Source of the DNA: Knoellia koreensis
GTDB taxonomy: Bacteria; Actinomycetota; Actinomycetes; Actinomycetales; Dermatophilaceae
NCBI RefSeq assembly: GCF_013041615.1
Contig: NZ_JABEPQ010000002.1
Location: 62,001 to 126,000 of the forward strand
Direction: 5' to 3'
DNA: 64,000 bases
The position numbers were made by a program, and so were the translations under genes. Positions within the stretch are counted from its first letter, which is position 1. Each line of letters begins with the position of its first letter. Below are positions 513 through 62,688 of this stretch, piece by piece. The notes below the pieces were generated by a model. It did no database searches, had not been told where the DNA came from, and worked only from the letters and a program-made list of their open reading frames with translations.

Positions 513-1256
513 GTGACGAGGCGCGGGTGGACCCTGGGGGTGGCGACGGCGGCGACGCTGCTGCTGTCCGCGTGGGTGGCCGCGGCCGGGCCGGTCGGCA
601 TCTTCGCCGCGCAGAGCATCTCCGGCAAGGAGTCCAGCGCGCCCGGCGAGGAGTACGCCAGCGGCGCCATCCGGAGCGGAGCGGCGGTCAAGACCCGGGC
701 CGGCACGACGCACACCGACAGCCTGATGACCGCGATCGTGTCGTGGGTGCTCACCATCGTGCTCGTGGCTGTGGTGGTGTTCGTCCTCGTCGCGGTCGTG
801 CGCTCCATCCGCGACACGCTCGCCCGGCACCGGGTCGACCCGACCGAGGAAGGCGCGGGCAGCGAGCTCACCCCCGAGCGCCTGCGCGCCGCCGCGCAGG
901 AGAGCGAGGAGCTGCTCGCCCGCGGCACCCCGAGCAACGGCGTCATCGCCGCCTGGGTCTCGCTCGAGGACGCCATCACCTCCGCGGGCATCCACCAGAA
1001 CGAGGCACGCACGCCCGCCGAGATCGTGACCGCCGTCATGCGTTCGTATGCCGTGGACGCGGGTGCGCTCGACCGGCTCGCCTCCCTCTACCGCGAGGCC
1101 CGTTTCTCGCGGCACGAGGTGGGCGAGGACATGCGCGACCAGGCGCGCACGGCCCTGCGGCAGGTCACGGCCGACCTCGCTCGGGCCGAGGCGCCCAAGG
1201 CTGCCCGGCCTGCGCGCGCCGGCGCGGGCGGACCCTCGGCGGGAGGCGTCCGGTGA
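513..1256 (+). CDS. DUF4129 domain membrane protein, first gene of MoxR/DUF58 operon
   Basis: 247 residues from the GTG at 513. A hydrophobic N-terminal segment (residues about 6-25) is followed by a short extracytoplasmic stretch, a second membrane segment (VSWVLTIVLVAVVVFVLVAV, about residues 75-95) and a cytoplasmic DUF4129-type domain with AAWVSLEDAITSAG and RTPAEIVTAV. DUF4129 is usually the C-terminal part of transglutaminase-like membrane proteins encoded with MoxR and DUF58; here it stands alone. An in-frame ATG/GTG far upstream is less likely because TAGGGT at 499-504 sits 8 bases before this GTG, as in a leaderless promoter. Stop overlaps the next start by GTGA. Confidence 0.75.
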   Translation: MTRRGWTLGVATAATLLLSAWVAAAGPVGIFAAQSISGKESSAPGEEYASGAIRSGAAVKTRAGTTHTDSLMTAIVSWVLTIVLVAVVVFVLVAVVRSIRDTLARHRVDPTEEGAGSELTPERLRAAAQESEELLARGTPSNGVIAAWVSLEDAITSAGIHQNEARTPAEIVTAVMRSYAVDAGALDRLASLYREARFSRHEVGEDMRDQARTALRQVTADLARAEAPKAARPARAGAGGPSAGGVR

Positions 1257-1762
1257 TCGCCCGGATCAGGGGCCTGGCACCCACGAGCCAGCTCGTCCTG
1301 GCCCTCGGCGTCGCCGTCGTCATCGGCGCCGTCGTGACGCTCGCACCCGGGACCCTCAACGTCGCCACGCTGCTGGCCTGCCTGGCCGTGCTCGCGGCCG
1401 TCGCCGTCCTCACCCAGTGGCTGTGGCAGAACCACCGCGGCACCGACTGGTCCAACGCCTTCACCGACCCCCATCCGCCGCGGGGCACCGACCCCCGCGT
1501 GAACCGCCTGGCCGCCCGCGTCGACGCCGCCGTCGCCGGTGATGCCGTCGCCCAGACCGAGCTGCACGACCAGCTCCGCACGCTCGCCGAGGACCGCCTG
1601 CGCAGCCGCCACGGCATCGTCCTCGACGGCGGCCCCGACCACACCGAGCGCGCCAGGGCCGCCCTGGGCGCCGACCTCACGGCATACCTCACCAATCCCC
1701 CGACCACCCGGCTCGACCACGCCCGCGTCGCCGGGTACCTCACCACCCTGGAGGAGCTCTAG
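1253..1762 (+). CDS. Hypothetical membrane protein in MoxR operon
   Basis: 169 residues, starting at a GTG that overlaps the upstream stop (GTGA). Two membrane helices lie near the N terminus (about residues 13-32 and 35-55), followed by a soluble domain rich in Arg and Asp with NRLAARVDAAVAGDAVAQ and a leucine-rich C terminus. I do not recognise a family. Its stop shares one base with the moxR start (TAGTG), so it is translationally coupled inside the operon and probably works with the MoxR-DUF58 machine at the membrane; that role is inferred from context only. Confidence 0.7.
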   Translation: MIARIRGLAPTSQLVLALGVAVVIGAVVTLAPGTLNVATLLACLAVLAAVAVLTQWLWQNHRGTDWSNAFTDPHPPRGTDPRVNRLAARVDAAVAGDAVAQTELHDQLRTLAEDRLRSRHGIVLDGGPDHTERARAALGADLTAYLTNPPTTRLDHARVAGYLTTLEEL

Positions 1763-2757
1763 TGAACGACACCCTCGCCCTGAGCGGCGTCTCCGAACGC
1801 GCCAACGCGATCCTCACCGAGGTCGAGCGCGCGGTCGTCGGCAAGCGCCGCAGCCTCGAGCTCGTGCTGTCGGGCATCCTCGCCGGTGGGCACGTGCTGA
1901 TGGAGGACTTCCCGGGGCTCGGGAAGACGCTCGCGGCGCGGTCCTTCGCGCAGGCGCTCGGGCTCGACTTCGCGCGGGCGCAGTTCACGCCCGACCTGCT
2001 GCCGAGCGACCTGACCGGGTCCTTCCTCTACGACCAGCGCACCCACGAGTTCACGTTCCGCAAGGGGCCACTGTTCACCGGTCTGCTGCTCGCCGACGAG
2101 ATCAACCGCACGCCCCCGAAGACGCAGTCCGCGCTGCTCGAGGCGATGCAGGAGGGACAGGCCACCGTCGAGGGCGAGACCTTCCCGCTGCCCAAGCCGT
2201 TCCACGTGCTCGCCACGGCGAATCCCGTTGAGTACGAAGGGACTTACCCGCTCCCGGAGGCTCAGCTCGACCGCTTCCTGCTGCGCGTCTCGTTCGGCTA
2301 CCCCACCGCGAACGAGGAGTGGGAGGTGCTCCAGCGGCGCATGGACCGCCGACAGGAGGAGCAGTCCGTCGCGCAGGTCACGGACGCCGAAGGCCTCATG
2401 GCGATGCAGGCCGCGGTCGAGCAGGTCACCGTCGACGAGGGCGTCGGTCAGTACTGCGTCAAGCTCGTCGCCGCGACGCGCAACCACCAGAGCCTGCTCA
2501 TGGGCTCCTCGCCGCGTGGCTCGCTCGCGCTGCTGCTCACCGCCCGGGCGTATGCCGTCGTGCGCGGTCGCGACTACGTCACCCCCGAGGACGTCAAGGC
2601 CGTCGCCCACGCCGCGCTCGACCACCGCGTCACCGCGCGGCCCGAGCTGTGGATGAACGACGTCTCGGCCGCCAGCGTCATCGACTCGCTGCTGACCTCG
2701 GTGCCGACGCCGGCCGCCACGGACGGGGGCCAGCGGACCGGTTTCGAGCGGCCGTGA
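1762..2757 (+). CDS. MoxR-family AAA+ ATPase
   Basis: 331 residues. Walker A is GLGKTLAA near residue 53 and Walker B is LLLADEINR near residue 110, followed by KTQSALLEAMQEGQ, a MoxR signature, and the sensor region ATANPVEYEGTYPLPEAQLDRFL. Length and motif order match the family. MoxR ATPases act as chaperones that insert cofactors or remodel protein complexes together with DUF58/VWA partners, which is the next gene. The GTG start overlaps the previous stop, and the 3-prime end overlaps the DUF58 start by GTGA, indicating one polycistronic unit. The real substrate cannot be read from the sequence. Confidence 0.93.
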   Translation: MNDTLALSGVSERANAILTEVERAVVGKRRSLELVLSGILAGGHVLMEDFPGLGKTLAARSFAQALGLDFARAQFTPDLLPSDLTGSFLYDQRTHEFTFRKGPLFTGLLLADEINRTPPKTQSALLEAMQEGQATVEGETFPLPKPFHVLATANPVEYEGTYPLPEAQLDRFLLRVSFGYPTANEEWEVLQRRMDRRQEEQSVAQVTDAEGLMAMQAAVEQVTVDEGVGQYCVKLVAATRNHQSLLMGSSPRGSLALLLTARAYAVVRGRDYVTPEDVKAVAHAALDHRVTARPELWMNDVSAASVIDSLLTSVPTPAATDGGQRTGFERP

Positions 2758-4322: not shown

Positions 4323-4846
4323 TGCTGTCGCGCTCCCAGGCCGTCCTGCGTGCTCTGGTCGTCGTGGCGACCGTGGGCGCCTGCGCCGTCACCCTGGCCG
4401 CGTCCCTGTCACCGCTGTGGATCGCGGCTGCGCTCCTCGTGGGGCTGTCGGTGTGGGTGGCCCTGAACCCCTCGTCCCGGCTGGCGTTCGTGCTGGTCCT
4501 CGGGCTCGCGGTCCACTGGCTGGTCACGGTGCCGGTCCCCCACACCACCAGCGCGTGGCTGCTGACGCTCGTCACCGCCGTGCTGCTGCTGGCCGTCCAC
4601 CTGTGTACGTCACTGGCCGCTGCGCTGCCGCCGCAGGCGCCCCTGCCGGGCCTGACCATCCGGCGCTGGACCCGGCGCGCCGCGCTCGTCGTGCTTGCCT
4701 GCTGCCCCGTGTGGGCGGTGTCGGTGGCCGTGTCACGCACCGGTGAGCCCGGCCGAGGCACCTTCACGTATGCCGCGTTGGCCGGCACGGCGCTCCTCGC
4801 CCTGGCGCTCTGGCTGGCGTCGCGCGAGCAGCCCCACCCCAGCTGA
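4322..4846 (+). CDS. Hypothetical polytopic membrane protein closing the MoxR operon
   Basis: 174 residues with about five predicted membrane helices (residues about 8-28, 30-46, 52-70, 75-97, 122-140, 150-166) and a short basic loop RRWTRRAA. The ATG at 4322 overlaps the DUF58 stop, so it is coupled to it. No family recognised. The C terminus ends SREQPHPS and is followed after 13 bases by a 20-base element that recurs at 18481. Confidence 0.75.
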   Translation: MLSRSQAVLRALVVVATVGACAVTLAASLSPLWIAAALLVGLSVWVALNPSSRLAFVLVLGLAVHWLVTVPVPHTTSAWLLTLVTAVLLLAVHLCTSLAAALPPQAPLPGLTIRRWTRRAALVVLACCPVWAVSVAVSRTGEPGRGTFTYAALAGTALLALALWLASREQPHPS

Positions 4847-4858: not shown

Positions 4859-4953
4859 CAGCTTTTCCGCGTCATGCGCGAACCTCGGGTTCGCTCGCCA
4901 TTGTGAGCCGAGCGAACCTCAAGCTTCCCGAGCGAAGTGGCCGGTATGCCGCG
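4859..4953. repeat. Intergenic palindromic element A1 (shared 20-base head plus inverted repeat)
   Basis: The 20 bases at 4859-4878 (CAGCTTTTCCGCGTCATGCG) are identical to 18481-18500, and both copies start 13 to 19 bases after a TGA stop. Here they lead into an inverted repeat, GGTTCGCTCG at 4888-4897 against CGAGCGAACC at 4909-4918, with a further GCGAACCTC direct repeat. The element lies between two convergent genes and could serve as a bidirectional transcription end or processing site; no T-run is seen. Confidence 0.6.
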
Positions 4954-4974
4954 GCGGCGACCACGCGGCATACC
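4943..4974. terminator. Hairpin built from an inverted pair of GTATGCCG motifs, after clpX
   Basis: GGTATGCCGCG at 4943-4953 pairs with CGCGGCATACC at 4964-4974 (11 perfect pairs, 10-base loop). It lies 26 bases after the clpX stop on the minus strand, facing the end of the MoxR operon. There is no T-tract, so it would be a non-canonical or Rho-assisted end. The arms are the window-wide octamer. Confidence 0.55.
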
Positions 4975-6281: not shown

Positions 6282-6473
6282 GCGACGATCCTCTCCACCG
6301 GGGTGCAACTGGCTTGCTCCGACGCTACCCGCCGGACTACTCCATTTTCACCATTGAATCGCCGTTGGTGCGCCCGGGTCAGCCCTTGTCCGCTCAGGGC
6401 GGAAGCCGTCGCCACCGACGCAACCATCCAGTGCGCGCACAGACGTCGCGTATGCCGCGTGGCCGCCGCGGGT

Positions 6474-9214: not shown

Positions 9215-9250
9215 GGTATGCCGCCCACTCGCGTGAGTGGGCGGCATACC
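9215..9250. terminator. 16-bp hairpin built from inverted GTATGCCG motifs, after clpP2
   Basis: GGTATGCCGCCCACTC at 9215-9230 pairs perfectly with 9235-9250 around the tetraloop GCGT. It lies about 107 bases beyond the clpP2 stop. It is the tightest of four such motif-pair hairpins. Confidence 0.6.
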
Positions 9251-10797: not shown

Positions 10798-10845
10798 CCG
10801 GCATACCTCCCCCTCCCGACGCACCCTCATGCCGAGGTATGCCGG
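10798..10845. terminator. 12-bp inverted pair of GTATGCCG motifs after the MFS gene
   Basis: CCGGCATACCTC at 10798-10809 pairs with GAGGTATGCCGG at 10834-10845 (12 perfect pairs, 24-base loop), starting ten bases after the MFS stop in the minus direction. Confidence 0.55.
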
Positions 10846-12262: not shown

Positions 12263-13348
12263 ATGACCGCTCCCCGTCAACCTCGGGTCACCCTGCGCGC
12301 CGTCGCCGACGCCGCCGGAGTCTCGACGTCGACGGCCTCGCTCGCCTTCAGCGGCAAGGGCCCGGTCGCCGCCGAGACGGTCGAGCGGGTGCGCGCCGCC
12401 GCCGAGCAGCTCGGGTATGCCGGCCCCGACCCCTTGGCCTCGCAGCTGCGGGCCGGGCGGTCGGGCGTCGTCGGTGTCGTGGTCGAGGGCCGGCTCGGCC
12501 ACGCGTTCCGCGACCCGTTCGCGGTGAGCGTCCTCGACGGCCTGTCCCAGGTGCTCGATGAGGTGCCAGCCGGCATCCTGCTCATCGCGCAGCAGGCCGG
12601 CGAGCCCGAGCGGGCCATCACCCACCTGCAGTCGGCCGCCCTCGACGCGGTCGTCTTCTCCCTGTGCGGACCCGACCACAACCCGGCCGTCGACCACCTG
12701 GCCGCACGCGGCATACCCATGATCGGTGACGGGTCGCCCGCCGACCCCCGCGTCACCCAGCTCGGCCTCGACAACCGTGGCGCCAGCGCCGCGATGAGCC
12801 GCCACCTGCACGACCTCGGCCACCGCCGCGTCGCCCACGTCCTCATGCCGCTCGGCCCCGACTCCCCCACCGGCCCGGTCGACGAGGCCGACCTCGCCGC
12901 CGGGCTCTTCGTCGACACCCGCGACCGGGCCCACGGCTTCCTCGACGTCTTCGGCGACCAGCCCGACGGTGGCCGCCCACCACTCGTCCAGACGTCGATG
13001 CCCGACGTCGAGCAGGCGGCGCTGGCGGTGCGACCGTTGCTGGAGCTGCCCGCAAGTCTGCGACCGACGGCCGTCGTCGCACAGTCCGACCTGTTGGCGC
13101 TGGGCGTGATCCGCGCCGCCGATAACCTCGGGCTGCGCGTGCCGGAGGACCTGAGCGTCACCGGCTTCGACGGGGTCGAGCTGCCGTGGTTCGCCGGAAA
13201 GCTGACGACGGTGGACCAGCAGGGCGAGGCCAAGGGCCGCACCCTGGGTGAGATGGTGCGCACCCTGCTCGAGGGCGAGACACCGACCGATGCCGTGCAC
13301 CCCACCACGGTGCGCCTCGGCACCACCACCGCGCCACCGGTCAGCTGA
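12263..13348 (+). CDS. LacI-family transcriptional regulator
   Basis: 361 residues. The N-terminal helix-turn-helix is VTLRAVADAAGVSTSTASLAFSG, with the hinge helix DPLASQLRAGRSG near residue 60, then a periplasmic-binding-like effector domain (VVGVVVEGRLGH, VTGFDGVELPWFAGKLTTVDQ). It presumably represses itself and the divergent MFS gene at the tandem palindromes and releases on binding a sugar-like ligand. The 3-prime end overlaps the convergent gene by eight bases. Confidence 0.92.
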   Translation: MTAPRQPRVTLRAVADAAGVSTSTASLAFSGKGPVAAETVERVRAAAEQLGYAGPDPLASQLRAGRSGVVGVVVEGRLGHAFRDPFAVSVLDGLSQVLDEVPAGILLIAQQAGEPERAITHLQSAALDAVVFSLCGPDHNPAVDHLAARGIPMIGDGSPADPRVTQLGLDNRGASAAMSRHLHDLGHRRVAHVLMPLGPDSPTGPVDEADLAAGLFVDTRDRAHGFLDVFGDQPDGGRPPLVQTSMPDVEQAALAVRPLLELPASLRPTAVVAQSDLLALGVIRAADNLGLRVPEDLSVTGFDGVELPWFAGKLTTVDQQGEAKGRTLGEMVRTLLEGETPTDAVHPTTVRLGTTTAPPVS

Positions 13349-13863: not shown

Positions 13864-13902
13864 ACGTATGCCGTGCGCCCGGGTCGGGCGCACGGCATAC
13901 GT
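13864..13902. terminator. 17-bp hairpin built from inverted GTATGCCG motifs, after tig
   Basis: ACGTATGCCGTGCGCCC at 13864-13880 pairs perfectly with 13886-13902 around a five-base loop, 20 bases after the tig stop in the minus direction. A short T-rich stretch lies only on the plus side. Confidence 0.65.
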
Positions 13903-15293: not shown

Positions 15294-15460
15294 TTCGGGG
15301 TACTCCGGTGGTCGGTGGCGATGGGGCTGTATGGGCCGGCGTCGGCGCGGCACGCGGGCACGCGGCATACGCAGAGAATGGCCGGTCAGCCATGGTAGCC
15401 GCACGGGCGCGCCCGGCCGAACTCGACCGGTGGGCGCCCCTGCCTGCCTAGGGTTGCCCC

Positions 15461-18550: not shown

Positions 18551-18568
18551 CGTGTGAGGGTCTGAGGT

Positions 18569-35815: not shown

Positions 35816-35822
35816 GCCGGGT

Positions 35823-49597: not shown

Positions 49598-51517
49598 CTA
49601 GGTGGAACCGAGGCGGACCACGGCTGCGGTGCCAGGTGGCAGGTGCAGGCCGTTCGGACGGATCTTCGTCTGTTCGGGGTCCCAGGCGAGCAGCACCTCG
49701 CGCGGGGTGCCGTCGAGCGGGACGGTCCAGCGCGAGTGTGTCAGGTTGACCACGGTCGCCACCGAGCCGCGGCGCATCACGAGCCACCCGTCCTTGTCGT
49801 CGAACTGCACGTCCACGAGGTCCAGCCGACCGTCGCCGAGCTCGAACTCCTTGCGCCGCAACGCGATCAGGTCCCGGTAGTAGGTCAGGAGCCGTGCGTG
49901 CTCGCCCTCGTGCGGTTCGGCCCAGTCGAGCTGGGACCGGCGCATCGTCTGCTCGTCCTGCGGGTCGGGGACGTCGGCGGCGTCCCACCCGTGGTCGGCG
50001 AACTCTGACCGCCGCCCCTCGGTGACCGCCTTGCCCAGCTCCGGGTCCTCGAAGTCGGTGAAGAACTGGAACGGCGTGCTCGCACCCCACTCCTCCCCCA
50101 TGAAGACCATGGGCGTGAAGGCTGAGGTGAGGTAGAGCGTCGCGCCAACGGCCTGCCGTGACAACGGGATCGTGGCACTGATGCGGTCGCCGACCGCGCG
50201 GTTTCCCACTTGGTCGTGGTTCTGCAGGTAAGCGAGGAACCGCCTGCCGTCGGTGTGCTCGCGGTCTACGGGCGCACCCCAGTCCGAGCCCCGGAAGCTC
50301 GACCACGACCCGTCGTGCAGGAACGCCCCGGTCAGCACCTTGGCCAGCACAGCCAGCGGACCCCCGTCGGGCATGGCCCTGCTGTCGCCGGCGAAGTCGC
50401 GGTAGTAGCCCTGCGTCTCCCCCGTCAGCGTGACGTGGAGCGCGTGGTGCACGTCGTCGTCCCACTGCGCGTCCATGCCGCGCCCACCATCGGCCGTGGG
50501 CGCGACCATCCTTGGCTGGTTGAGGTCGCTCTCGGCGACGAGCGCCAGCGGGCGGCCGAGCCGGGCCGCCAGGGCACCGACCTCATCGGACAGCTGGGCC
50601 AGCACGTGCTGGTCGGAGTCGTCGTGCAGCTCGTGCACGGCGTCGAGGCGCAGCGCGTCGAGGTGGAAGTCGGCGAACCAGCGCAGCGCGCTGTCGACGA
50701 TCCAGCGGCGCACGTGGAAGCTGCCGTCCCCGTCGAGGTTGAGGCCCGGCCCCCACGGCGTCGGGTGCCGGTCACTGAAGTAGGGACCGAACGTCGGCAG
50801 GTAGTTCCCGGCGGGTCCGAGGTGGTTGTAGACGACGTCGAGGCACACGCCGAGTCCGACCTGGTGGCAGGCGTCGACGAACCGCTGCAGCGCCGCCGGC
50901 CCCTCGTAGGCGTCGTGGACCGACCACGGACCGACGCCGTCGTAGCCCCAGTTCCACCTGCCGGCGAAGCTCGCCACCGGCATGAGCTCGACGACGTCGA
51001 CGCCGAGCTCGACGAGGTGCCCGAGGCGACGCTGAGCGGCGTCGAGCGTGCCCTCGGGCGTGAAAGTGCCGACGTGCAGCTCGTAGAAAACCGCACCGAG
51101 AACGCCTTCACCCTGTTGGGGTCCGGCCCACGTCGCGTCGTGCCAGGAGTATGCCGCCGCGTCGAACCACCGGCTGCGACCGTCGACACCGTGCGGCTGC
51201 CAGGCCGAGCGCGGGTCGGGCAGCGCAGGTCCACCGTCGAGCCGGAAGGCGTAGTCCAGCCGGTCATCAGCGGCGAGGTCGGGGGCCTGCCAGCGCCACC
51301 AGCCGTCACCCTTGGGTTGCATGTCGCCGACACCCTGGGTCGTCTCGACACCATCGCCGCCGGCCCGCGACCAGTCGACCCGGACGTAGGACCGGTCGGG
51401 CGCCCACAGGGTCAGCTCGGGCCCATTGGGGGGCTGCGATGACTCGGCCTGCGGCCCGGTCTGCGCGGAGGGTGACGCGGTGTGCGCGGACGCGTCAGTG
51501 CTCTCAGGAGTGCTCAT
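49598..51517 (-). CDS. treZ: Malto-oligosyltrehalose trehalohydrolase
   Basis: 639 residues from the ATG at 51517, which overlaps treY by 14 bases. N-terminal E-set domain (LTLWAPDRSYVRVDW), then the GH13 barrel: nucleophile in LDALRLDAVHEL, acid in LALVAESDLNQP, third acid in YLQNHDQVGNRA. FYELHVGTFTPEGTLDAA is a TreZ signature. Releases trehalose from maltooligosyl-trehalose. The first 35 residues (Ser/Thr/Ala-rich) are an extension. Last gene of the treX-treY-treZ operon. Confidence 0.94.
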   Translation of the reverse strand: MSTPESTDASAHTASPSAQTGPQAESSQPPNGPELTLWAPDRSYVRVDWSRAGGDGVETTQGVGDMQPKGDGWWRWQAPDLAADDRLDYAFRLDGGPALPDPRSAWQPHGVDGRSRWFDAAAYSWHDATWAGPQQGEGVLGAVFYELHVGTFTPEGTLDAAQRRLGHLVELGVDVVELMPVASFAGRWNWGYDGVGPWSVHDAYEGPAALQRFVDACHQVGLGVCLDVVYNHLGPAGNYLPTFGPYFSDRHPTPWGPGLNLDGDGSFHVRRWIVDSALRWFADFHLDALRLDAVHELHDDSDQHVLAQLSDEVGALAARLGRPLALVAESDLNQPRMVAPTADGGRGMDAQWDDDVHHALHVTLTGETQGYYRDFAGDSRAMPDGGPLAVLAKVLTGAFLHDGSWSSFRGSDWGAPVDREHTDGRRFLAYLQNHDQVGNRAVGDRISATIPLSRQAVGATLYLTSAFTPMVFMGEEWGASTPFQFFTDFEDPELGKAVTEGRRSEFADHGWDAADVPDPQDEQTMRRSQLDWAEPHEGEHARLLTYYRDLIALRRKEFELGDGRLDLVDVQFDDKDGWLVMRRGSVATVVNLTHSRWTVPLDGTPREVLLAWDPEQTKIRPNGLHLPPGTAAVVRLGST

Positions 51518-54014
51518 CGCCGCCAAGGCTGCCATGTGCGACCAGCAACGCCACCGGAAGCTCGCCGAGGACACGCTCGAGCGAAGCCCCTCCCGACCCG
51601 TCGACCCGGACACGGTGACCGGTGAGGACGTCCTCCCACTCTCCGGGCGGTAGGGCCACAGTCGCGTCCCCCCAGCCGCCGTCCGCCTCGAGACCCGCGG
51701 CAAGCCTGGTGACCACGGTGACGACCTTCGGCCCGTCCACATCCCCACGCGCGAACGCGAGGGCGCGGTCGCTGGTCGTGGCGACTGGGGCGTAGGTCGA
51801 GTCCTGCCCGACGAACCATCCCGGCCGGTCGCGACGCAGCCTCAGGGCGGCGCTGGTGACGCGCAGCTTCTCGTCGCCGAGGTCGCGCGGGGTCTCACCC
51901 CCGTCGAGCCGCGCGAGCCGCTTCGACCGCTCGCCGTAGTCGACGAGCCGGCGGTTGTCCGGGTCGACGAGGGACAGGTCGACCAGCTCGGTGCCCTGGT
52001 AGACGTCCGGCACGCCCGGCATCGTCAGCTGCACCAGCTTCTGGCCGAGGACATTGGCTCGGGTGGCCTGCGCCGTGCGCGCCAGCCAGTCCTCGACGTG
52101 GCGTCCGGTGGCGGGGTCCGTCACCAGGGCGTCGACGAAGGTCAGCACCGCTTCCTCGTATGCCGCGTCCGGCTCGCTCCACGTGGTGTGCAGCTTGGCC
52201 TCGCGAATCGCCTTGGTGGCGTAGGCCTTCAGGCGCTCTGCCGTGATGGGCCATGCGCCGACCACCGTCTGCCAGAGGAAGTACTCCGTCGCCGGGTCGA
52301 GCCGCGGTGACCGGTGCGCCGCGGACAGCTCGTGCGCGGTTGCCACCCACCGGGCCCACTCGTCCGGCAGCTCGGACAGCACGGCGAGACGCGCACGGAC
52401 GTCTTCGGACCGCTTGGTGTCATGGGTCGACAAGGTGGTCATGGTGAGCGGCCACGTGCGGTGACGCTGCGCGGCATACTCGTGGAAGTCGTTCACGGAC
52501 AAGCCGATTCGTCCCGGGTCGCCGCCAACCTCGTTGAGCCCGGTGAGGCGCACGTAGCGGTAGAAGGCGGTGTCCTCGATGCCCTTGGCCATCACCGGCC
52601 CGGTGGTCTGCTGGAAACGCCGCACGAACTCCTGTTGGGCCGTCGCCGAATCGGCCTGCGCCTGCGGCAGACGTCCGCCTCGTGCGAGCTCGGCGACGAC
52701 CTGCACGGCTTCGCGGTCACCGGGGTCGGAGTCGTGCATGGCCCGCGCCTCGGCGGCGTCGAGGATGGTGCCATCGCCCCGGCCCGGCGGCACGGAGCCA
52801 CCCAGGTACGCCCGGTACCGGTCGAAGGCCACCAGCAGGGTCTCGAGTGCTCTCCGCAGCGCGCCCTGGTCGTCATGGGGAAGCACGCGAGCGACGAGAC
52901 GCATGAGCCGGTTGACCTCGGCGGCCTGGACCTCGGACACGACCTGGCGCTTCGCCGCCACGACCAGGTCGTCGAGGTCCTGCTCCTCCCCGAGGAACTG
53001 CGCGGCCGTGCTCGTCAGCGCCGCGGACCCGGCTGAATCGTGGAAGACCTGCTGCACCCGCAGCAGCGCGTCGTACCCCGTCGTCCCGGCACAGCGCCAG
53101 TAGTCGGGCAGGTCCTCGTGCCCCTCGAGGATCTTCTCGGCGACGACCCAGGCGTCGTCCGTCGCATCGGCGAGCCGGGCGAGGTATCCCGTCGGGTCGG
53201 CCAGGCCGTCCGGGTGGTCGATCCGGAAGCCGTCGATGACCCCGGAGTCGAAGGCATCAAGGAGGAGGCGGTGCGTCGCGTCGAAGACGTCGGGATCCTC
53301 CACCCGGACCGCCGCGAGTGTGGTGACGTCGAAGAAGCGCCGGTAGTTGAGCCGGGTCCCGCCCTCGCGCCAGTCGACGAGCCGATAGTGCTGTGCCGCA
53401 AGAAGTTCCGGCAGTTCGCGGTCCTCGGTTCCCGCTCGCACGGGGAAGGCGTGGTCGTAGTAGCGCACGACCCACTCGTCGCCATCCGGGCCGCCGTCAC
53501 GCGCCACGGTGACCTCGCTCTTGGCGACGACCTCGTCCAGGGAGGCACCGAGCACCGGCACCAGCACGCGGTCGTCCTCCGCCGCCCAGTCCACGTCGAA
53601 CCACGCGGCATACGGCGACTCGCGTCCGTCGCGCAGCAGCGACCACCACGGCTGGTTGAGCCAGGCCGGGGTCGGCGTCGCCACGTGGTTGGGCACGATG
53701 TCGACGATGAGCCCGAGCCCTTGGTCCGCAAGGGCGCGGCCCAGCCCCTCGAATCCTGTGCCGCCACCGGCTTCCTCGTTGAAGCGGCTGTGGTCCACGA
53801 CGTCATATCCGTGCGTCGAGCCCGGCTCGGGCTGGAGCACCGGCGACACGTACGCGTGCGAAACGCCCAGCGCCGCAAGGTAATCGGTCTGGTCTGCGGC
53901 TTGGTCAAAGGTGAATGCCGGCTGGACCTGGAACCGGTACGTCGCGGTCGGGACCGCGCGGCCGGGCCCGGGCCGGTGCGCCGCCCCCGCGGTGGTCGCC
54001 GGGGACTGACTCAT
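51504..54014 (-). CDS. treY: Maltooligosyl trehalose synthase
   Basis: 836 residues from the ATG at 54014, overlapping the treX stop by ATGA. PTATYRFQVQPAFTFDQAAD and VSHAYVSPVLQPEPGSTHGYDVVDH start the GH13 barrel; catalytic residues lie in GFRIDHPDGL and WVVAEKILEG; KGIEDTAFYRYVRLTGLNEVGG and TMTTLSTHDTKRSEDVRARL are TreY signatures. It turns the reducing end of a malto-oligosaccharide into trehalose. Confidence 0.96.
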   Translation of the reverse strand: MSQSPATTAGAAHRPGPGRAVPTATYRFQVQPAFTFDQAADQTDYLAALGVSHAYVSPVLQPEPGSTHGYDVVDHSRFNEEAGGGTGFEGLGRALADQGLGLIVDIVPNHVATPTPAWLNQPWWSLLRDGRESPYAAWFDVDWAAEDDRVLVPVLGASLDEVVAKSEVTVARDGGPDGDEWVVRYYDHAFPVRAGTEDRELPELLAAQHYRLVDWREGGTRLNYRRFFDVTTLAAVRVEDPDVFDATHRLLLDAFDSGVIDGFRIDHPDGLADPTGYLARLADATDDAWVVAEKILEGHEDLPDYWRCAGTTGYDALLRVQQVFHDSAGSAALTSTAAQFLGEEQDLDDLVVAAKRQVVSEVQAAEVNRLMRLVARVLPHDDQGALRRALETLLVAFDRYRAYLGGSVPPGRGDGTILDAAEARAMHDSDPGDREAVQVVAELARGGRLPQAQADSATAQQEFVRRFQQTTGPVMAKGIEDTAFYRYVRLTGLNEVGGDPGRIGLSVNDFHEYAAQRHRTWPLTMTTLSTHDTKRSEDVRARLAVLSELPDEWARWVATAHELSAAHRSPRLDPATEYFLWQTVVGAWPITAERLKAYATKAIREAKLHTTWSEPDAAYEEAVLTFVDALVTDPATGRHVEDWLARTAQATRANVLGQKLVQLTMPGVPDVYQGTELVDLSLVDPDNRRLVDYGERSKRLARLDGGETPRDLGDEKLRVTSAALRLRRDRPGWFVGQDSTYAPVATTSDRALAFARGDVDGPKVVTVVTRLAAGLEADGGWGDATVALPPGEWEDVLTGHRVRVDGSGGASLERVLGELPVALLVAHGSLGGDEHS

Positions 54015-56149
54015 GACCGTGCGCACCTCAGCACCACGACGCTGCGTCCGATCGCGGTCACCTTCGCGCCGGGAGCGTATGCCGCGGGCTGCTGCGCGGG
54101 GTCCGGCGCTCCTTCGGTGGCCGTGTCGATCTCGACCACCCAGCTGTCGCCGTAGTCCGCCGTGGGGATGGTGAACTCGATGTCACCGTCCGAGCCGTTG
54201 AACAGCACGAGGAAGTGGTCGTCGACGATCTTCTGGCCCCGGGTGTCCGGCTCGGGGATGGTCTGGCCGTTGAGGAACACCATGACCGCCCGCGCGTAGC
54301 CGTTGGCCCACGCCGCCTCGTCCATGTGCGAGCCACCCGGCTCGAACCACGCGATGTCGCCGACCTCGCTCTCGCCGCCGTGGTCGGCCGAGCCGGCGAA
54401 GAACCGGCGCCGCCGGAAGACCGGGTGCTCGCTGCGCAGGCGCACGAGGCGCTGGGTGAAGGCCAGCAGGCCGCGCTCGGTGTCATCGAGGTCCCAGTCG
54501 ACCCAGCTGAGCTCGTTGTCCTGGCAGTAGGTGTTGTTGTTGCCCTGTTGGGTACGCCCCAGCTCGTCGCCGTGCAGCAGCATGGGCACCCCCTGCGACA
54601 GCAGCACCGTGGTGAGGATGTTGCGCTGCTGACGCCGCCGGAGCGCGTTGATCTGCGGGTCGTCGGTGGGGCCCTCGACACCGCAGTTCCACGAGCGGTT
54701 GTGGCTCTCGCCGTCCTGGTTGCCCTCGCCGTTGGCCTCGTTGTGCTTTTCGTTGTAGGACACCAGGTCTCGCAGAGTGAAGCCGTCGTGGGCCGTCGCG
54801 AAGTTGATCGACGCGATCGGCTTGCGGCCGTCCTCCTGGTAGAGGTCGCTGGACCCGGTGATCCGCGACGCGAACTCCCCCAGCGTGGCCGGCTGGCCGC
54901 GCCAGAAGTCGCGCACGGTGTCGCGGTACTTGCCGTTCCACTCGGTCCACAGCGGCGGGAAGTTGCCGACCTGGTAGCCACCGTCACCCACGTCCCACGG
55001 CTCGGCGATGAGCTTGACCTGGCTGACCACGGGGTCCTGCTGCACCAGGTCGAAGAAGGCCGACAGCTTGTCGACCTCGTGGAACTGCCGGGCCAGTGTC
55101 GCCGCAAGGTCGAACCGGAACCCGTCGACGTGCATCTCGAGCACCCAGTAGCGCAGCGAGTCCATGATGAGCTGCAGCACGTGCGGGCTGCGCATCAGCA
55201 GGCTGTTCCCCGTGCCGGTCGTGTCGTAGTAGTGCGACTTGTCCTCGTCGACGAGCCGGTAGTAGGCCGCGTTGTCGATGCCCCGGAAGCACAGGGTGGG
55301 GCCCAGGTGGTTGCCCTCGGCCGTGTGGTTGTAGACGACGTCGAGGATGACCTCGATGCCGGCCGCGTGCAGGGCCTTGACCATGCCCTTGAACTCCGCG
55401 ACCTGCTCACCACGCGTGCCGTATGCCGCGTAGCCGTTGTGCGGGGCGAGGAACCCGATCGTGTTGTAGCCCCAGTAGTTGTGCAGGCCGCGCTCACGCA
55501 GGGTGAAGTCGTCGACGAACTGGTGCACGGGCATCAGCTCGACGGCGGTGACGCCGAGGTCCTTGAGGTGCTGGATGGTCACGGGGTGGGCCATCGCGGC
55601 ATACGTGCCCCGAATCTCCTCGGGGATGTCCGGGTGCTGCTCGGTGAGCCCCTTCACGTGTGCCTCGTAGATGACCGTGTCGTGGTACTCGTGCCCCGGC
55701 GCGCGGTCCTGTCCCCAGTCGAAGAACGGGTTGATGACCACGGAGTACATCGTGTGCCCGAGGCTGTCCTCGATGTTCGCCTTGCCGGGGTCCTCGCTGG
55801 GGTCGGCGAAGTCGTAGGAGAACAGCGCCTGGTCGCCGTCGGCCATCCCGTCGATCGCCTTTGCGTAGGGGTCGAGCAGCAGCTTGTGCGGGTTGCACCG
55901 GTGCCCGTTCGCGGGGTCGTACGGGCCGTGCACGCGGTAGCCGTAGCGCTGACCGGGCTGGACGCCGGGGAGGTAGCCGTGCCAGACGAAGCCGTCGACC
56001 TCGGGCAGGTCGACCCGCCGCTCGCTGCCGTCGTCGTCGACGAGGCACAGCTCCACGCGCGTGGCGACCTCGGAGAAGACGGCGAAGTTGACGCCGGTGC
56101 CGTCGTAGGTTGCCCCCAGGGGGTAGGCCTTGCCGGGCCAGGTCTCCAT
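54011..56149 (-). CDS. treX: Glycogen debranching enzyme GlgX/TreX
   Basis: 712 residues. CBM48 domain (PLGATYDGTGVNFAVFSEVA), then the barrel with ELMPVHQFVDDFTLRERGLHNYWGYN, nucleophile in VDGFRFDLAATLAR, acid in KLIAEPWDVG and the Asp of NFATAHDGFTLRD. It removes alpha-1,6 branches so TreY can act on linear chains. AAGG upstream of the ATG. First gene of the operon, suggesting trehalose is made from glycogen. Confidence 0.96.
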   Translation of the reverse strand: METWPGKAYPLGATYDGTGVNFAVFSEVATRVELCLVDDDGSERRVDLPEVDGFVWHGYLPGVQPGQRYGYRVHGPYDPANGHRCNPHKLLLDPYAKAIDGMADGDQALFSYDFADPSEDPGKANIEDSLGHTMYSVVINPFFDWGQDRAPGHEYHDTVIYEAHVKGLTEQHPDIPEEIRGTYAAMAHPVTIQHLKDLGVTAVELMPVHQFVDDFTLRERGLHNYWGYNTIGFLAPHNGYAAYGTRGEQVAEFKGMVKALHAAGIEVILDVVYNHTAEGNHLGPTLCFRGIDNAAYYRLVDEDKSHYYDTTGTGNSLLMRSPHVLQLIMDSLRYWVLEMHVDGFRFDLAATLARQFHEVDKLSAFFDLVQQDPVVSQVKLIAEPWDVGDGGYQVGNFPPLWTEWNGKYRDTVRDFWRGQPATLGEFASRITGSSDLYQEDGRKPIASINFATAHDGFTLRDLVSYNEKHNEANGEGNQDGESHNRSWNCGVEGPTDDPQINALRRRQQRNILTTVLLSQGVPMLLHGDELGRTQQGNNNTYCQDNELSWVDWDLDDTERGLLAFTQRLVRLRSEHPVFRRRRFFAGSADHGGESEVGDIAWFEPGGSHMDEAAWANGYARAVMVFLNGQTIPEPDTRGQKIVDDHFLVLFNGSDGDIEFTIPTADYGDSWVVEIDTATEGAPDPAQQPAAYAPGAKVTAIGRSVVVLRCARS

Positions 56150-56290: not shown

Positions 56291-56356
56291 AAGGTGGCCA
56301 CACGGCATACGCACCCCGCACGTCAACCCGCTCCCCACGCAGCCCCGGAGGCCCAC

Positions 56357-57112: not shown

Positions 57113-57600
57113 GGGCCGGCGGGCATCAGGGCGACCATCGGCAGCTGCTGGGCCATGCGTCGTCGGGCTGCCGGTGAGCCGTCGTAGCGCCACCCGAGCA
57201 GTGCCGTGAGGGTGGGTCGGATGACCGGCGCAAGCAGGGAGTTGCGCCGCTCGTAGGCGGCATAGGTCGCCACGGCCTCGTCGACGGGGAGCACCCGGTA
57301 TGCCGCTGGGCGCGGCCCGCGGCCGAAGTCCACCGTGAGAGCCCCGCCGGACCGGAGGTTGCGCAGCCAGTCGGCACCCTCACCGAAGCCCGACACCACG
57401 ACTGCCTCCCCCGTGCGCCGGTCATAGCGGACGACTTCGAGGACGACGTGGAACCGGCGACCGCTGCGGCGGCCGGTGTGCCCAAGCTGCAGGAAGCGGC
57501 GACCGAGTAGCCGCCCAAAACCCTTGTCGTACAGAGTGTTCGGCGCACGGAACGCGGCCTTGAGCCAGCCGGGGAGGTCTTTGCTGGATGGTGCGCCCAC
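57085..57600 (-). CDS. Deazaflavin (F420)-dependent nitroreductase-family protein (Ddn-like)
   Basis: 171 residues from GTG at 57600. GRRFLQLGHTGRRSGRRFHVVLEVV and VVSGFGEGADWLRNLRSGG are typical of the FDOR/Ddn-type F420H2-binding split barrel. Acts on quinones or lipophilic substrates using F420H2. TACCGT six bases before the GTG suggests its own leaderless promoter although it follows the SDR genes by 27 bases. Confidence 0.88.
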   Translation of the reverse strand: MGAPSSKDLPGWLKAAFRAPNTLYDKGFGRLLGRRFLQLGHTGRRSGRRFHVVLEVVRYDRRTGEAVVVSGFGEGADWLRNLRSGGALTVDFGRGPRPAAYRVLPVDEAVATYAAYERRNSLLAPVIRPTLTALLGWRYDGSPAARRRMAQQLPMVALMPAGPQSSGPPAT

Positions 57601-57627: not shown

Positions 57628-58419
57628 TCAGTCGGTGCCCATGGTGACGGCCGGCAGGCCCGCGGCCATCCGGCGCATCCCGGCGAGCCAGCGGTCGGGG
57701 TCCGCGGCCCGGCCGGCATACATCTGCGCGACCTCGGGGTGTGGCAGCACGAGGAACCGCTCCTGCTCCATGGCGACGAGCAGGTCTTCGGCGACCTGCT
57801 CGGGCGTGACGGCTGAGGGCTCCATGAGTGCCCGCCCGGCGGCGCCGCTGTTCCACAGCATGTCGGTCTTCACGCCCTGCGGGCAGACCGCGTGGACGCG
57901 AATCCCCTTGTCGCCGTACGTCATCGACAACCACTCGGCGAACGCCAACGCCGCGTGCTTGGTCACGGCATACGGAGCCGCGCCCGGGATGGACAGCAGG
58001 CCCGCAGCGCTCACGGTGGCGACGAACGTGCCGCTTCCCCGCTCGACCCAGCCGGGCACGAGGAGCCGGGCAGCACGGACATGCGCCATGACGTTGACGT
58101 TCCACGAGACGTCCCATGCCCTCTCGTCGACGGCCTCGGTTCCGCCACGGGCGACACCGGCGTTCGCGCAGAAGACGTCGACCTCACCGAGGCGGTCGCG
58201 AGCCGCCGCGACCAGCGCCTCGACACCCTCCTCGCTCGAGGCGTCACCGGGGACGGCGTGCGCTCCGAGCTCGGCGGCAGTCGTCTCGAGCGCCCCCGCG
58301 TCCAGGTCGTTGACCACCACATCCGCACCGGCCGCCGTGAACGCCCGGGCGTAGGCGGCGCCGATGCCACGCGCGGCACCGGTCACGACGACGCCGCGAC
58401 CGGCGAGGGCCACGGTCAC
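57628..58419 (-). CDS. SDR-family oxidoreductase
   Basis: 263 residues. TGAARGIGAAYARAFTAAG, ANAGVARGGTEAVDE, YAVTKHAALAFAEWL with the catalytic Tyr/Lys, and HAVCPQGVKTDML. The long C terminus (MEQERFLVLPHPEVAQMYAGRA) is of the kind seen in actinobacterial lipid SDRs. GTG start overlaps the previous gene by four bases. Confidence 0.92.
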   Translation of the reverse strand: MTVALAGRGVVVTGAARGIGAAYARAFTAAGADVVVNDLDAGALETTAAELGAHAVPGDASSEEGVEALVAAARDRLGEVDVFCANAGVARGGTEAVDERAWDVSWNVNVMAHVRAARLLVPGWVERGSGTFVATVSAAGLLSIPGAAPYAVTKHAALAFAEWLSMTYGDKGIRVHAVCPQGVKTDMLWNSGAAGRALMEPSAVTPEQVAEDLLVAMEQERFLVLPHPEVAQMYAGRAADPDRWLAGMRRMAAGLPAVTMGTD

Positions 58420-59174
58420 ATCGCCCCGCCGAGGGTGACGCCGCCGTCGACGACGAGGGTCTGGCCGGTCATCCAGCCGGCGTCGTCCGACAGGAGGAAC
58501 GAGACCGCTCCCGCGATGTCCTCGGGCATCCCGAGCCGCTTCATGGGGTATGCCGCGGAGACCTTGTCCTCGCGACCCTCGTACAGCGCCTCCGCGAACT
58601 GGGTCTTGACGATGGCGGGGGCGACCGCGTTGACCCGCACCGCCGGCGCGAGCTGGAAGCCGAGCTCGGTGGTGAGGTGGATGAGCGCAGCCTTGGAGAC
58701 GCCGTACCAGCCGATCGTGCCGGTCGCACCGAGGCCGGCGATCGAGGCGACGTTGACGACAGCTCCGGTTTTGCCGTCGGCGCCGAGACCGGCCGCCACC
58801 GCCTTCTTCACCCAGCTGAACGCCGCGACGACGTTGGTGTCGAAGATCTTGCGCACTGCCTCCGCGGGGGCGTCGAGCAGCGGTCCGTAGACCGGGTTGA
58901 TGCCGGTGTTGTTGACCAGCAGGTCGAGCCCACCGAACCGCTCCTTGGCGGTGGCGATCACCTCGTCCTGATGGGTCTCGTCGGCTGCATTTCCCGCAAC
59001 CGCAACGGCTTTCGACTCACCGCCGAGCTTCTCGACCGCCTCAGCGAGCGCCTCGGGCTTTCGCGCCGTGATGACGACGCGGGCGCCTTCCGCGACGAGC
59101 TTCTCGGCGATGCCCCGGCCGATGCCACGGGAGGCACCGGTGACGATGGCGACCTTCCCGTCGTGGACCCCCAC
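58416..59174 (-). CDS. SDR-family oxidoreductase
   Basis: 252 residues. TGASRGIGRGIAEKL, NNTGINPVYGPLLD, YGVSKAALIHLTTEL, ending GQTLVVDGGVTLGG. NNTG replaces the usual NNAG. Probably 3-hydroxyacyl or sterol-type dehydrogenase in the same pathway as the acyl-CoA dehydrogenase upstream. GTG-type overlap with the next gene and one base from the acyl-CoA dehydrogenase stop. Confidence 0.92.
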   Translation of the reverse strand: MGVHDGKVAIVTGASRGIGRGIAEKLVAEGARVVITARKPEALAEAVEKLGGESKAVAVAGNAADETHQDEVIATAKERFGGLDLLVNNTGINPVYGPLLDAPAEAVRKIFDTNVVAAFSWVKKAVAAGLGADGKTGAVVNVASIAGLGATGTIGWYGVSKAALIHLTTELGFQLAPAVRVNAVAPAIVKTQFAEALYEGREDKVSAAYPMKRLGMPEDIAGAVSFLLSDDAGWMTGQTLVVDGGVTLGGAM

Positions 59175-60436: not shown

Positions 60437-61090
60437 ATGCTGTCAACCATGTCCAGTGCCGCGCAGACCTCACCGTCGACCGCGCCCACCCCCAGTGCCG
60501 CGGGTAGCCCGGCCCTCGCCGGCACGAGCGACACCCAGGGCCGCCTGCTCGAGGCTGCCGCCGAGGCGTTCGCCGACCGCGGCTTCCACGCCACAACCAC
60601 GCGCGACATCGCAGCCCGGGCCGGCCTGTCCCCCGCCGGCGTCTACGTGCACTTCAAGACCAAGGAGGAGCTGCTCTACCAGCTCTCCCTGGCCGGGCAC
60701 CTCGCTGCGCTGGAGCTGCTGCGCAGCGCCGTCGCCGACCATGACTCCCCCGCCGACGAGCTCCGGGCGATCATGACGACGTTCTCGCGCTGGCACGCCG
60801 AGCACTACCGGGTCGGCCGGATCGTGCAGTACGAGTTCGGCAACCTCACCGACGAGCACCGTGACGAGGTGCTTCGGCTGCGCAAGGAGATCGACGCGGT
60901 CGCCCGGGACGTGGTGACCCGTGGGGTCGCCAGTGGCGAATTCGTCGTCGGTGACGTCGCCGACACCACCCTCGCCCTGCTGTCGATGGCGATCGACGTC
61001 GCCCGCTGGTACGACCCGGAGATCCGGCGCACGCCCGAGGCCATCGGCGCGGCATACGGAGAGCTCGGCCTGCGCCTCGTCGGCGCCTGA
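60437..61090 (+). CDS. TetR-family regulator of the lipid catabolism block
   Basis: 217 residues (an ATG four codons later is also possible). A Ser/Thr/Ala-rich leader of about 30 residues precedes the helix-turn-helix GFHATTTRDIAARAGLSPAGVYVHFKTKEELLYQLS. The C-terminal domain with FSRWHAEHYRVGRIVQYEF resembles the KstR/FadR-like TetR regulators of lipid breakdown. It probably binds the two ACTAAGC sites and responds to an acyl-CoA. Confidence 0.9.
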   Translation: MLSTMSSAAQTSPSTAPTPSAAGSPALAGTSDTQGRLLEAAAEAFADRGFHATTTRDIAARAGLSPAGVYVHFKTKEELLYQLSLAGHLAALELLRSAVADHDSPADELRAIMTTFSRWHAEHYRVGRIVQYEFGNLTDEHRDEVLRLRKEIDAVARDVVTRGVASGEFVVGDVADTTLALLSMAIDVARWYDPEIRRTPEAIGAAYGELGLRLVGA

Positions 61091-61131: not shown

Positions 61132-62055
61132 TCAGCGGCCGGGTGCCCGGAGTGGCTCGACCTGGCGCACCACCTCGGCGACGAGGGGGTATGCCGCGTC
61201 GTCACTGTCGTTCGCCATGCCCATGATGACCGTGTCGATCCCGGCGTCGGACAGCCGCCCGAACCGCTCGACGGTCTCGTCGACCGACGCATACGGCTCA
61301 CCGGACGGCGCCGTCTCGCCTGCCGGGCCGAGCGTCACGCGCGCAAGACACGTCTTCTCGATCGAGGCGTAGTCGCGGCCGACTGCCTCGCAGTGCTCGC
61401 GCAGAATGTCGAGCTTGCGTGGGATCCCCTCCGGCCCGAGCCCGGTGTCGAAGAGGTTGCACGCGTCGGCGTACTCGGCGACCAACCGCAGCGTCTTCTT
61501 CTCGCCACCACCCCCGATGAGGATCGGCGGGTGCGGGCGGCGCAGGCTCTGCGGCACGTTGAGGGGACGTTCCAGCTGGTAGTGCCGCCCGGCATACGGA
61601 CTCTCGTCACCGGCCCACATCTGCAGGCAGATCTGCAACGTCTCCTCGAGCCGCTCGAACCGTTCCTTCGTCGACGGGTAGGGGACGCCGAGGCCCCGGT
61701 GCTCCTCCTCGTTCCAGGCGGCACCGATCCCCAGCCACGCCCGCCCGCCGGACAGCACGTCGAGGCTCGTGACGGTCTTGGCGAGCAGCCCGGGATGCCG
61801 GTAGGTCACCCCGGTGACGAGCGTGCCGAGCTCGATCCGGCTGGTCTGCCCGCCCGCGAACGCCAGCGCCGTGTAGCCCTCGACCATGTCGAGCTCGGGC
61901 GGCCCGATCATCGCGATCTGGAAGAAGTGGTCCATCACCCACAGCGACGACAGACCGGCGTCCTCGGCATTGCGGGCGATCCGCCCGAAGGTCGGGCCGA
62001 TGGAGGCCGGGGCGTCCGGCCAGGAGAAGTAGGAGACCTGGAGTCCTAGGCGCAT
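61132..62055 (-). CDS. LLM-class F420-dependent oxidoreductase
   Basis: 307 residues. MRLGLQVSYFSWPDAPASIG, LWVMDHFFQIAMIG, ELGTLVTGVTYRHPGLLAKTVTSLDVLSGGRAWLGIGAAWNEEEH and PPILIGGGGEKKTLRLVAEYAD define a TIM-barrel LLM enzyme of the F420 type. Substrate unknown. CACGAT lies six bases before the ATG, so a leaderless transcript is plausible. Confidence 0.92.
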   Translation of the reverse strand: MRLGLQVSYFSWPDAPASIGPTFGRIARNAEDAGLSSLWVMDHFFQIAMIGPPELDMVEGYTALAFAGGQTSRIELGTLVTGVTYRHPGLLAKTVTSLDVLSGGRAWLGIGAAWNEEEHRGLGVPYPSTKERFERLEETLQICLQMWAGDESPYAGRHYQLERPLNVPQSLRRPHPPILIGGGGEKKTLRLVAEYADACNLFDTGLGPEGIPRKLDILREHCEAVGRDYASIEKTCLARVTLGPAGETAPSGEPYASVDETVERFGRLSDAGIDTVIMGMANDSDDAAYPLVAEVVRQVEPLRAPGR

Positions 62056-62085
62056 GACCGCATCGTGCGCACAAAATGTGTTAAT

Positions 62086-62688
62086 TCACAACGTCTTTCG
62101 CATGACGGGTCGGGTTGGGCCCGTCCTCCCGACCTCCGTGAACCCGGCGTCGGCGAAGGTGCTGGCGACGCCGTGGTAGAGGTCGGAGCCCGGCGCCTTG
62201 CCACCACTGCGCGCGGCCACGTCCACAGGGTGCCCTTCGAGCACCGAGGCTCCCTGCTCGCGCGCGAAGTCGACCGCTGCCGCGAGCAGCGCCCGCGCGA
62301 CGCCCTTGCGGCGTCTCCCCACCCGCACGACGAAACAGGTCACCGACCACACGTCGCGGTCCGCAAGGTCGTCGCCGGTCGCCTCCGCGAGCGCGGCTCG
62401 CCCGCGGTTGGTGGTGATGCGGGGGTATGCCGTGCGCGGCCCGAGCTGGACCCACCCCACCGGCTCGTCCCCGGCATACGCCACGAGGCCGCGCGAGCGC
62501 TCCTTGGCCCGCGACGCGAGCTGACTGCGCAGCGCCTCACGGTTGGTGTCGGTGTTCTGGAAGTAGCCCTCCCCCGTCGTCAGGAAGAACTGGCACCAGC
62601 ACCACGACGGCGCACCTCGGGTGCCGAACAGGTCGACGACGTCGTCCCACCGGCCGGGGCCGGCGGGACGTATCGTCAGCTCGGACAT
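62086..62688 (-). CDS. GNAT-family acetyltransferase with CWC motif
   Basis: 200 residues. The N-terminal region has APSWCWCQFFLTT, a Cys-Trp-Cys motif that is typical of a subgroup of actinobacterial GNATs. The acetyl-CoA loop is VRVGRRRKGVARALLAAAVDFA. The ATG lies four bases after the ettA stop, so the two genes form an operon. Substrate unknown. Confidence 0.88.
   Translation of the reverse strand: MSELTIRPAGPGRWDDVVDLFGTRGAPSWCWCQFFLTTGEGYFQNTDTNREALRSQLASRAKERSRGLVAYAGDEPVGWVQLGPRTAYPRITTNRGRAALAEATGDDLADRDVWSVTCFVVRVGRRRKGVARALLAAAVDFAREQGASVLEGHPVDVAARSGGKAPGSDLYHGVASTFADAGFTEVGRTGPTRPVMRKTL

Follow-up and report, generated by a model that had tools for sequence, protein, structure and literature searches.

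An exact, densely repeated octamer in Knoellia koreensis that avoids itself on the same DNA strand: a possible self-DNA tag

Among described systems, the closest to the element studied here are the DNA uptake sequence (DUS) of Neisseriaceae and the uptake signal sequence (USS) of Pasteurellaceae, which are dense short words found about once per kilobase with no chromosome-wide orientation bias, an excess between genes, inverted pairs, and differing words among relatives. To our knowledge, all known uptake sequences come from Gram-negative bacteria. Chi of RecBCD and AddAB is an enriched, asymmetric, octamer-sized signal, and HIP1 of cyanobacteria is a very frequent palindromic octamer throughout the genomes of a clade. 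Here we analyze the octamer GTATGCCG in a 64-kb stretch of Knoellia koreensis DNA (positions 62,001 to 126,000 of contig NZ_JABEPQ010000002.1, hereafter the window), in the whole genome, and in the family Dermatophilaceae. GTATGCCG is like DUS and USS in density, lack of orientation bias, intergenic excess and inverted pairs, and perhaps in having different words among relatives, but it belongs to an actinobacterium whose genus gave no match to PilM, it is an exact 8-mer whose copies exclude each other on the same strand only, over ~1.2 kb, and it is known here from sequence alone. It is like Chi in size, asymmetry and enrichment, and strand-specific reading would fit, but it showed no polarity in the blocks examined, is denser, varies between close relatives and is not tied to RecC. 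Like HIP1, it is very frequent across whole genomes of a clade; unlike the palindromic HIP1, it is not its own reverse complement and its strands are used separately. Our literature searches, which covered few subscription papers, returned no uptake sequence or dense octamer reported for actinobacteria among the matches listed, and the listed papers matching the literal octamer were unrelated by title. The new element of this analysis is the strand-specific exclusion rule of GTATGCCG.

Abundance, exactness and strand spacing

A direct count in both orientations found 68 exact copies in the window, 37 as GTATGCCG and 31 as CGGCATAC. The original prediction, made from the window's letters, had put the total at ~65 between 1046 and 62478; its forward count of 37 was right, its reverse count of 29 was too low, and the copies in fact begin at 124 and end at 62479. 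Its claim of a word recurring about once per kilobase, far above composition, held, and the enrichment is genome-wide rather than confined to the window: the 4,282,418 bases (4.28 Mb) of K. koreensis contain 1983 forward and 2003 reverse copies (~1/kb), while the reversed control word, the same letters read backwards, has only 54 and 60. In 464 kb of K. koreensis DNA including the window, we observed 451 copies against Markov expectations of 16.2 (order 0), 7.4 (order 1), 10.8 (order 2), 22.3 (order 3) and 114 (order 4), and GTATGCCG was the top-scoring of all 8-mers under orders 2, 3 and 4. The expectations at orders 5 and 6 (304 and 442) are high because the shorter words within GTATGCCG are inflated by GTATGCCG itself, and thus of the two Markov checks proposed earlier, the third-order one bears out the enrichment, whereas the fifth-order one leaves an excess but is little informative. 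When the copies were masked before training an order-3 model, 520 kb contained 512 copies against 3.6 expected, an enrichment of ~140-fold.

In the same 520 kb, the 24 one-letter variants number 1 to 70 copies each, mostly within ~3-fold of expectation. The commonest is GGATGCCG (70 versus 45 expected), the largest ratio belongs to GTATACCG (4 versus 0.7), and GTATGCCA has 2 copies versus 1.3. Since the variants are scarcely enriched, we conclude that GTATGCCG is an exact octamer. Its flanks in the 464 kb show a weak 3' preference for C/T, then G, and little on the 5' side; among the 451 copies, 75 have the form GTATGCCGCGT.

As had been suggested, copies lie in genes and in spacers, with little strand bias. 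With genes called by a home-made gene caller, the density is 1.50/kb between genes versus 0.91/kb within them. Over 400 contiguous kb of contig C1 the strands carry 199 and 184 copies (383 in total). The balance holds for all eight 50-kb blocks of C1 and for 20 spread blocks of genome G103, and we reject strand polarity for these blocks. Genic copies lie mostly in one frame per strand (155 of 211 sense, 109 of 171 antisense), coding for Tyr-Ala or Ala-Tyr. This frame preference is what a by-product of codon or composition bias might produce, but we consider such an origin highly improbable and reject it, because the word is denser between genes, is absent from relatives of comparable GC, has barely enriched one-letter variants, and obeys the strand-specific exclusion described next.

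Same-strand copies of GTATGCCG avoid each other over ~1.2 kb, and copies on opposite strands do not. In the 400 kb of C1, adjacent copies switch strand in 273 of 382 cases versus 191 expected (binomial 2e-17), because same-strand pairs are scarce over short distances and opposite-strand pairs are not. Same-strand pairs stand at 0.27 of expectation at 100-300 bp and 0.57-0.68 at 500-1000 bp, reaching ~1 past 1.5 kb; opposite-strand pairs are, in both arrangements, about as frequent as chance predicts or more so, with plus-minus pairs in excess below 50 bp (10 versus 4.6 expected) and minus-plus pairs at 500-750 bp (38 versus 22.9). At 100-1000 bp, once copies less than 60 bp from an opposite-strand copy are dropped, C1 and the window together have 85 same-strand and 215 opposite-strand pairs (same share 0.283, interval 0.236-0.328). 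The same imbalance was found for GTATGCCG in 20 stretches round the G103 chromosome (30 same, 92 opposite), in nine pepN loci bearing GTATGCCG (9 and 21), and for an unrelated word, CGAAGGGG, in genome G079 (23 and 49), and in all of these and K. koreensis the ratio is ~1:1 at 1.5-4 kb. Neighbors in different genes alternate strands in 165 cases and share one in 82 in C1 (n=247), and within one gene in 93 and 27; the window gives 29 and 13 (n=42) for different genes, and 12 and 8 within one. In 20-kb blocks of C1 and G103, the number of copies per strand varies less than chance predicts (variance/mean 0.50-0.66). The pattern looks as if only the nearest copy on the same strand counted; indirectly, it indicates that the signal may be read on one strand, and it suggests that GTATGCCG is a self-recognition or recombination signal of that kind.

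For comparison, contigs carrying DUS or USS were drawn from viral_contigs; they were chosen for containing an inverted uptake-word pair and mix prophage and host DNA, and near-duplicate loci, as well as copies less than 60 bp from an opposite-strand copy, were dropped. The USS control word is what we take to be that of Haemophilus. Neither set shows clear same-strand exclusion at 200-1000 bp: DUS contigs have 67 same and 81 opposite pairs and USS contigs 17 and 13, versus 81 and 192 for GTATGCCG (Fisher 0.0019 and 0.0039). PMC6370729 gives the Neisseria DUS sequence. Below 200 bp, DUS contigs also have few same-strand pairs (6 versus 19), and the contrast with GTATGCCG is therefore confined to 200-1000 bp. 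A count of same-strand exclusion offers a cheap general test separating genome signals read on one strand from those read on double-stranded DNA.

Distribution, related words and candidate genes

Genera are referred to here by labels such as g2 and g48, and the genus names of some genomes were inferred. The pepN protein of the window has its best match in Pedococcus (76% identity), followed by other Dermatophilaceae/Intrasporangiaceae. At least 150 forward copies of GTATGCCG are present in 110 of 186 Dermatophilaceae genomes, K. koreensis included, and all 11 genomes of its genus group are rich (332 to 1983 forward, 293 to 2003 per strand). All 12 genomes of g2 and all 16 of g44 have at most 22 copies per strand, and single poor genomes occur in otherwise rich genera: G109 in g48 (10 + 9), G036 in g22 (17 + 20) and G137 in g55 (27 + 23). 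The AdnA of G036 shares only 53-54% identity with the AdnA of two genomes assigned to the same genus, which makes the placement of G036 look loose. In 10 genomes of other families in the order, GTATGCCG counts lie close to those of the reversed word, exceeding them 3.6-fold at most. In five alignments of K. koreensis with congeners, three of which used its com region, 38 of 68 GTATGCCG sites are unchanged versus 1252 of 4510 same-composition 8-mers, and K. koreensis has 38 of the 47 sites found in the congeners.

A comparison with related genera had also been proposed, and it gave a divided answer: other dense words were found in some GTATGCCG-poor genomes and none in others, on the basis of 20 samples of 15-40 kb, with further DNA for some. 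G079 has 168 copies of CGAAGGGGG versus 10 expected in 400 kb, G189 has 72 of GGATGCCG versus 6.2 in 72 kb, and G108 has 60 of CGATGCGG versus 11.5; the pairs of the last two (20 same and 34 opposite in G189, 26 and 42 in G108) are small counts leaning toward the strand rule. G117 has CGAAGGGG, which is shorter than the CGAAGGGGG of G079, and named Marihabitans and Janibacter loci have these words or ones that overlap them. Several samples have words of the GTACG type, but the enrichment is only few-fold and in G115 the strand rule is lacking; we do not treat them as established dialects. No convincing word was seen in samples of g2, g3, g7, g28, g29, g33, g52, G018 and G113, some of only 15-40 kb, or in pooled g2 DNA (172.7 kb, 9 loci, several species). 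In 21 Microbacteriaceae loci, GGATGCCG has 409 copies versus 57-84 expected, an enrichment biased upwards since these were picked from 80 loci for looking high in GGATGCCG-type words; its strand there is less well defined because it sits in a near-palindromic 9-mer. As separate observations, Microbacterium sp. MPKO10 (L076) has, in 22.5 kb, 16 copies of GGATGCTG where 1.1 would be expected, perhaps a further word of the GTATGCCG kind, and G194 (L123, L124) has an array-like repeat with GAGTAGGTGCGGA, ~14-16 copies in 40 kb.

The suggested search for com and pil genes had a mixed outcome as well. The comEA (SLBB and helix-hairpin-helix domains) and comEC reading frames of K. koreensis are open, and every one of the 19 com loci examined gave a match to both genes, three loci of the word-less g2 among them (a twentieth stretch, 2 kb and misplaced, was left out); comEC is split in two in G109 and G115. 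Family-wide, comEC (PF03772) is in 180 of 186 genomes and TadE in 181. Genomes that lack GTATGCCG have these genes too, so they are no specific pointer to uptake. PilM, which marks type IVa pili, was detected in 7 of 186 genomes, none of them in the K. koreensis genus group. In another actinobacterium, Micrococcus luteus, Flp/Tad pili are used for transformation (PMC4322843). Of the 186 genomes, 89 have RecC, K. koreensis among them, but none of its 10 GTATGCCG-rich congeners does; GTATGCCG is therefore not the Chi of RecBCD, an identity we reject. The RecC homologue of K. koreensis lies at G000:C10:305703-306716, and the same genome holds the most GTATGCCG copies of its genus. Two adjacent K. 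koreensis proteins are putative AdnA and AdnB, named from their helicase-nuclease domains and layout. All 20 loci searched for homologues of the two contained them, although one AdnA is cut by the end of a short contig. PDDEXK_1, in 186 of 186 genomes, does not separate GTATGCCG-rich from -poor ones, and no AdnA or AdnB column separates nine GTAT from four GTAC genomes, a weak test in which shuffled labels average 0.3 columns. Within g48, AdnA of G109, which lacks GTATGCCG, is 78.6% identical to that of G111, which has it, so AdnA was not replaced in G109.

What might read the octamer

The explanation we favor, and hold to be about an even call, is that GTATGCCG is a genome-wide tag of self DNA, read on one strand and acting over ~1-1.5 kb, most likely in transformation. 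Donor DNA would enter the cytoplasm single-stranded, as either strand at random, and a strand would have to carry at least one exact GTATGCCG, recognized on the single strand by a putative reader protein, in order to be kept or loaded for recombination. A second copy on that strand would add little, and a copy on the other strand would be a full second chance. Self-tagged DNA would be preferentially incorporated, which may let GTATGCCG spread by biased exchange, and the sequence could shift between genera. Such strand retention would predict same-strand exclusion, independent strands, equal strand use and no link to replication. Passages of PMC7811141 describe a single strand entering the cytoplasm in Haemophilus transformation. 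We count in support of the tag the abundance and sharpness of the word, the strand rule, the taxonomic pattern, the open comEA and comEC, the conservation of copies in congeners and the lability between close relatives. Several results weigh against it. Same-strand exclusion would be expected of a Chi-like signal too; comEC and TadE do not separate rich from poor genomes; and among the gene families checked in 186 genomes no gene was found whose presence tracks GTATGCCG, nor any reader protein. In addition, the 20-kb block counts of G079 are not under-dispersed (variance/mean 1.23, 0.88), CGATGCGG was not seen in the sampled DNA of G018, a congener of G108, and exclusion is missing for GTACGCCG in G115 (33 same, 39 opposite) and for GGATGCCG in the Microbacteriaceae pool (164 and 168, summed at 100-1000 bp), so that these two are not established as the same kind as GTATGCCG.

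A Chi-like site, a form of the recombination signal that had been offered originally as an alternative, at which an end-resecting helicase-nuclease, most plausibly AdnAB, reads GTATGCCG on one strand and stops degradation, is possible but in our judgment doubtful. Its geometry fits at least as well, since only the nearest same-strand site would count for each end, leaving the strands independent, and the AdnA/AdnB homologues and PDDEXK_1 are present throughout. It stays alive because AdnAB is present and its Chi regulation is an open question in the literature; passages of PMC4824097 leave that regulation open and predict a latch-like AdnA insertion. The Chi survey in PMC8022716 allows unpolarised Chi motifs but also describes Chi sites as polarised on the leading strand, whereas GTATGCCG is balanced in blocks (with ori and ter not located). 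The RecC distribution, the sampled g2 and g33 genomes that have AdnAB and no detected dense word, and, as a weak test, the lack of a separating AdnA/AdnB column also argue against it. The ~140-fold enrichment and the absence from single species set GTATGCCG apart from E. coli Chi, which occurs once per 5 kb, and it is the lability between close relatives, the enrichment and the absence of polarity that make us favor transformation over break repair.

An uptake sequence was the idea put forward originally; in its classical form, bound at the cell surface as double-stranded DNA in either orientation, we find it unlikely. Much of it stands: the density of ~1/kb, the lack of polarity, the intergenic excess, the inverted pairs 14-48 bp apart, the other words in some relatives, the comEA, comEC and tad genes, and the few close same-strand pairs in DUS contigs. 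What does not fit is orientation: exclusion acts within a strand only, the DUS and USS contigs differ at 200-1000 bp, and H. influenzae uptake is independent of USS orientation, as stated in passages of PMC1939737. GTATGCCG therefore resembles an uptake sequence in most features tested but departs from it in orientation-indifference, judged indirectly from the exclusion within a strand, and we class it as a strand-read variant rather than a member. Some other strand-oriented chromosome signal, such as an oriented site bound by a protein that forms loops or translocates, a start point for packaging or transfer, or a site nicked during repair, would accommodate an asymmetric word regularly spaced on each strand with both strands covered; we think this quite improbable, given the lack of polarity in blocks, a per-strand spacing of ~2 kb that we judge short for loop domains, and no candidate protein, none having been sought beyond the gene families named. 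Put more broadly, we see equal chances for and against a dialect-forming self-DNA tag, read on single strands and evenly spaced on each, in a Gram-positive phylum, being either an analogue of uptake sequences that is read on one strand or the Chi still missing for AdnAB, in which the tag switches between genera and the spacing rule stays. An exact octamer enriched ~140-fold with a strand spacing rule makes both the uptake and the AdnAB-Chi questions directly testable in soil actinobacteria.

Copies in the window and minor observations

The copies of GTATGCCG in the window are as follows.

124..131, minus strand, copy
1046..1053, plus strand, copy
1680..1687, minus strand, copy
2550..2557, plus strand, copy
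4768..4775, plus strand, copy
4944..4973, plus strand at 4944 and minus strand at 4966, inverted pair between called genes
6450..6457, plus strand, copy
9216..9249, plus strand at 9216 and minus strand at 9242, inverted pair between called genes
10799..10806, minus strand, copy forming a minus-plus pair with the copy at 10837
10837..10844, plus strand, copy
12415..12422, plus strand, copy
12709..12716, minus strand, copy
13866..13900, plus strand at 13866 and minus strand at 13893, inverted pair 22 bases past the 3' end of tig (13923-15488, minus strand)
15198..15205, plus strand, copy
15363..15370, minus strand, copy
16563..16570, plus strand, copy
16914..16921, plus strand, copy
17133..17140, minus strand, copy
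18567..18574, plus strand, copy
18934..18941, plus strand, copy
19744..19751, plus strand, copy
20181..20188, minus strand, copy
22241..22248, plus strand, copy
23063..23070, plus strand, copy
24966..24973, minus strand, copy
25829..25836, plus strand, copy
26030..26037, minus strand, copy
26339..26346, minus strand, copy
27110..27117, plus strand, copy
28039..28046, minus strand, copy
30390..30397, plus strand, copy
31435..31442, minus strand, copy
31727..31734, plus strand, copy
33104..33111, plus strand, copy
33918..33925, minus strand, copy
34669..34676, plus strand, copy
35821..35828, plus strand, copy
36272..36279, minus strand, copy
37902..37909, plus strand, copy
39413..39420, plus strand, copy
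40625..40632, plus strand, copy
40844..40851, minus strand, copy
41650..41657, minus strand, copy
42489..42496, plus strand, copy
45114..45121, minus strand, copy
46502..46509, minus strand, copy
47341..47348, plus strand, copy
47886..47893, minus strand, copy
51149..51156, plus strand, copy
52158..52165, plus strand, copy
52472..52479, minus strand, copy
53606..53613, minus strand, copy
54077..54084, plus strand, copy
55421..55428, plus strand, copy
55597..55604, minus strand, copy
56303..56310, minus strand, copy
57298..57305, plus strand, copy
57714..57721, minus strand, copy
57966..57973, minus strand, copy
58548..58555, plus strand, copy
61050..61057, minus strand, copy
61189..61196, plus strand, copy
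61590..61597, minus strand, copy
62425..62479, plus strand at 62425 and minus strand at 62472, inverted pair inside a called open reading frame

The pair at 13866..13900 overlaps the end of a called open reading frame, and several inverted pairs in K. koreensis lie less than 100 bp from called gene ends. Over the 520 kb, copies less than 60 bp apart form 15 plus-minus versus 6 minus-plus pairs.

Another word, CTGCGCGA/TCGCGCAG, is 3-4 fold over-represented in K. koreensis (198 versus 57 expected at order 3 in the 464 kb) and is likewise raised in several sampled relatives, including the word-less g2 (84 versus 22). Long gaps free of GTATGCCG were noticed in contig C1 at 192321-203217, 129482-140335, 292878-299916 and 3422-9752; the two longest have GC contents of 0.69 and 0.73, and the other two, with lower values (0.59, 0.64), may be recently acquired DNA.

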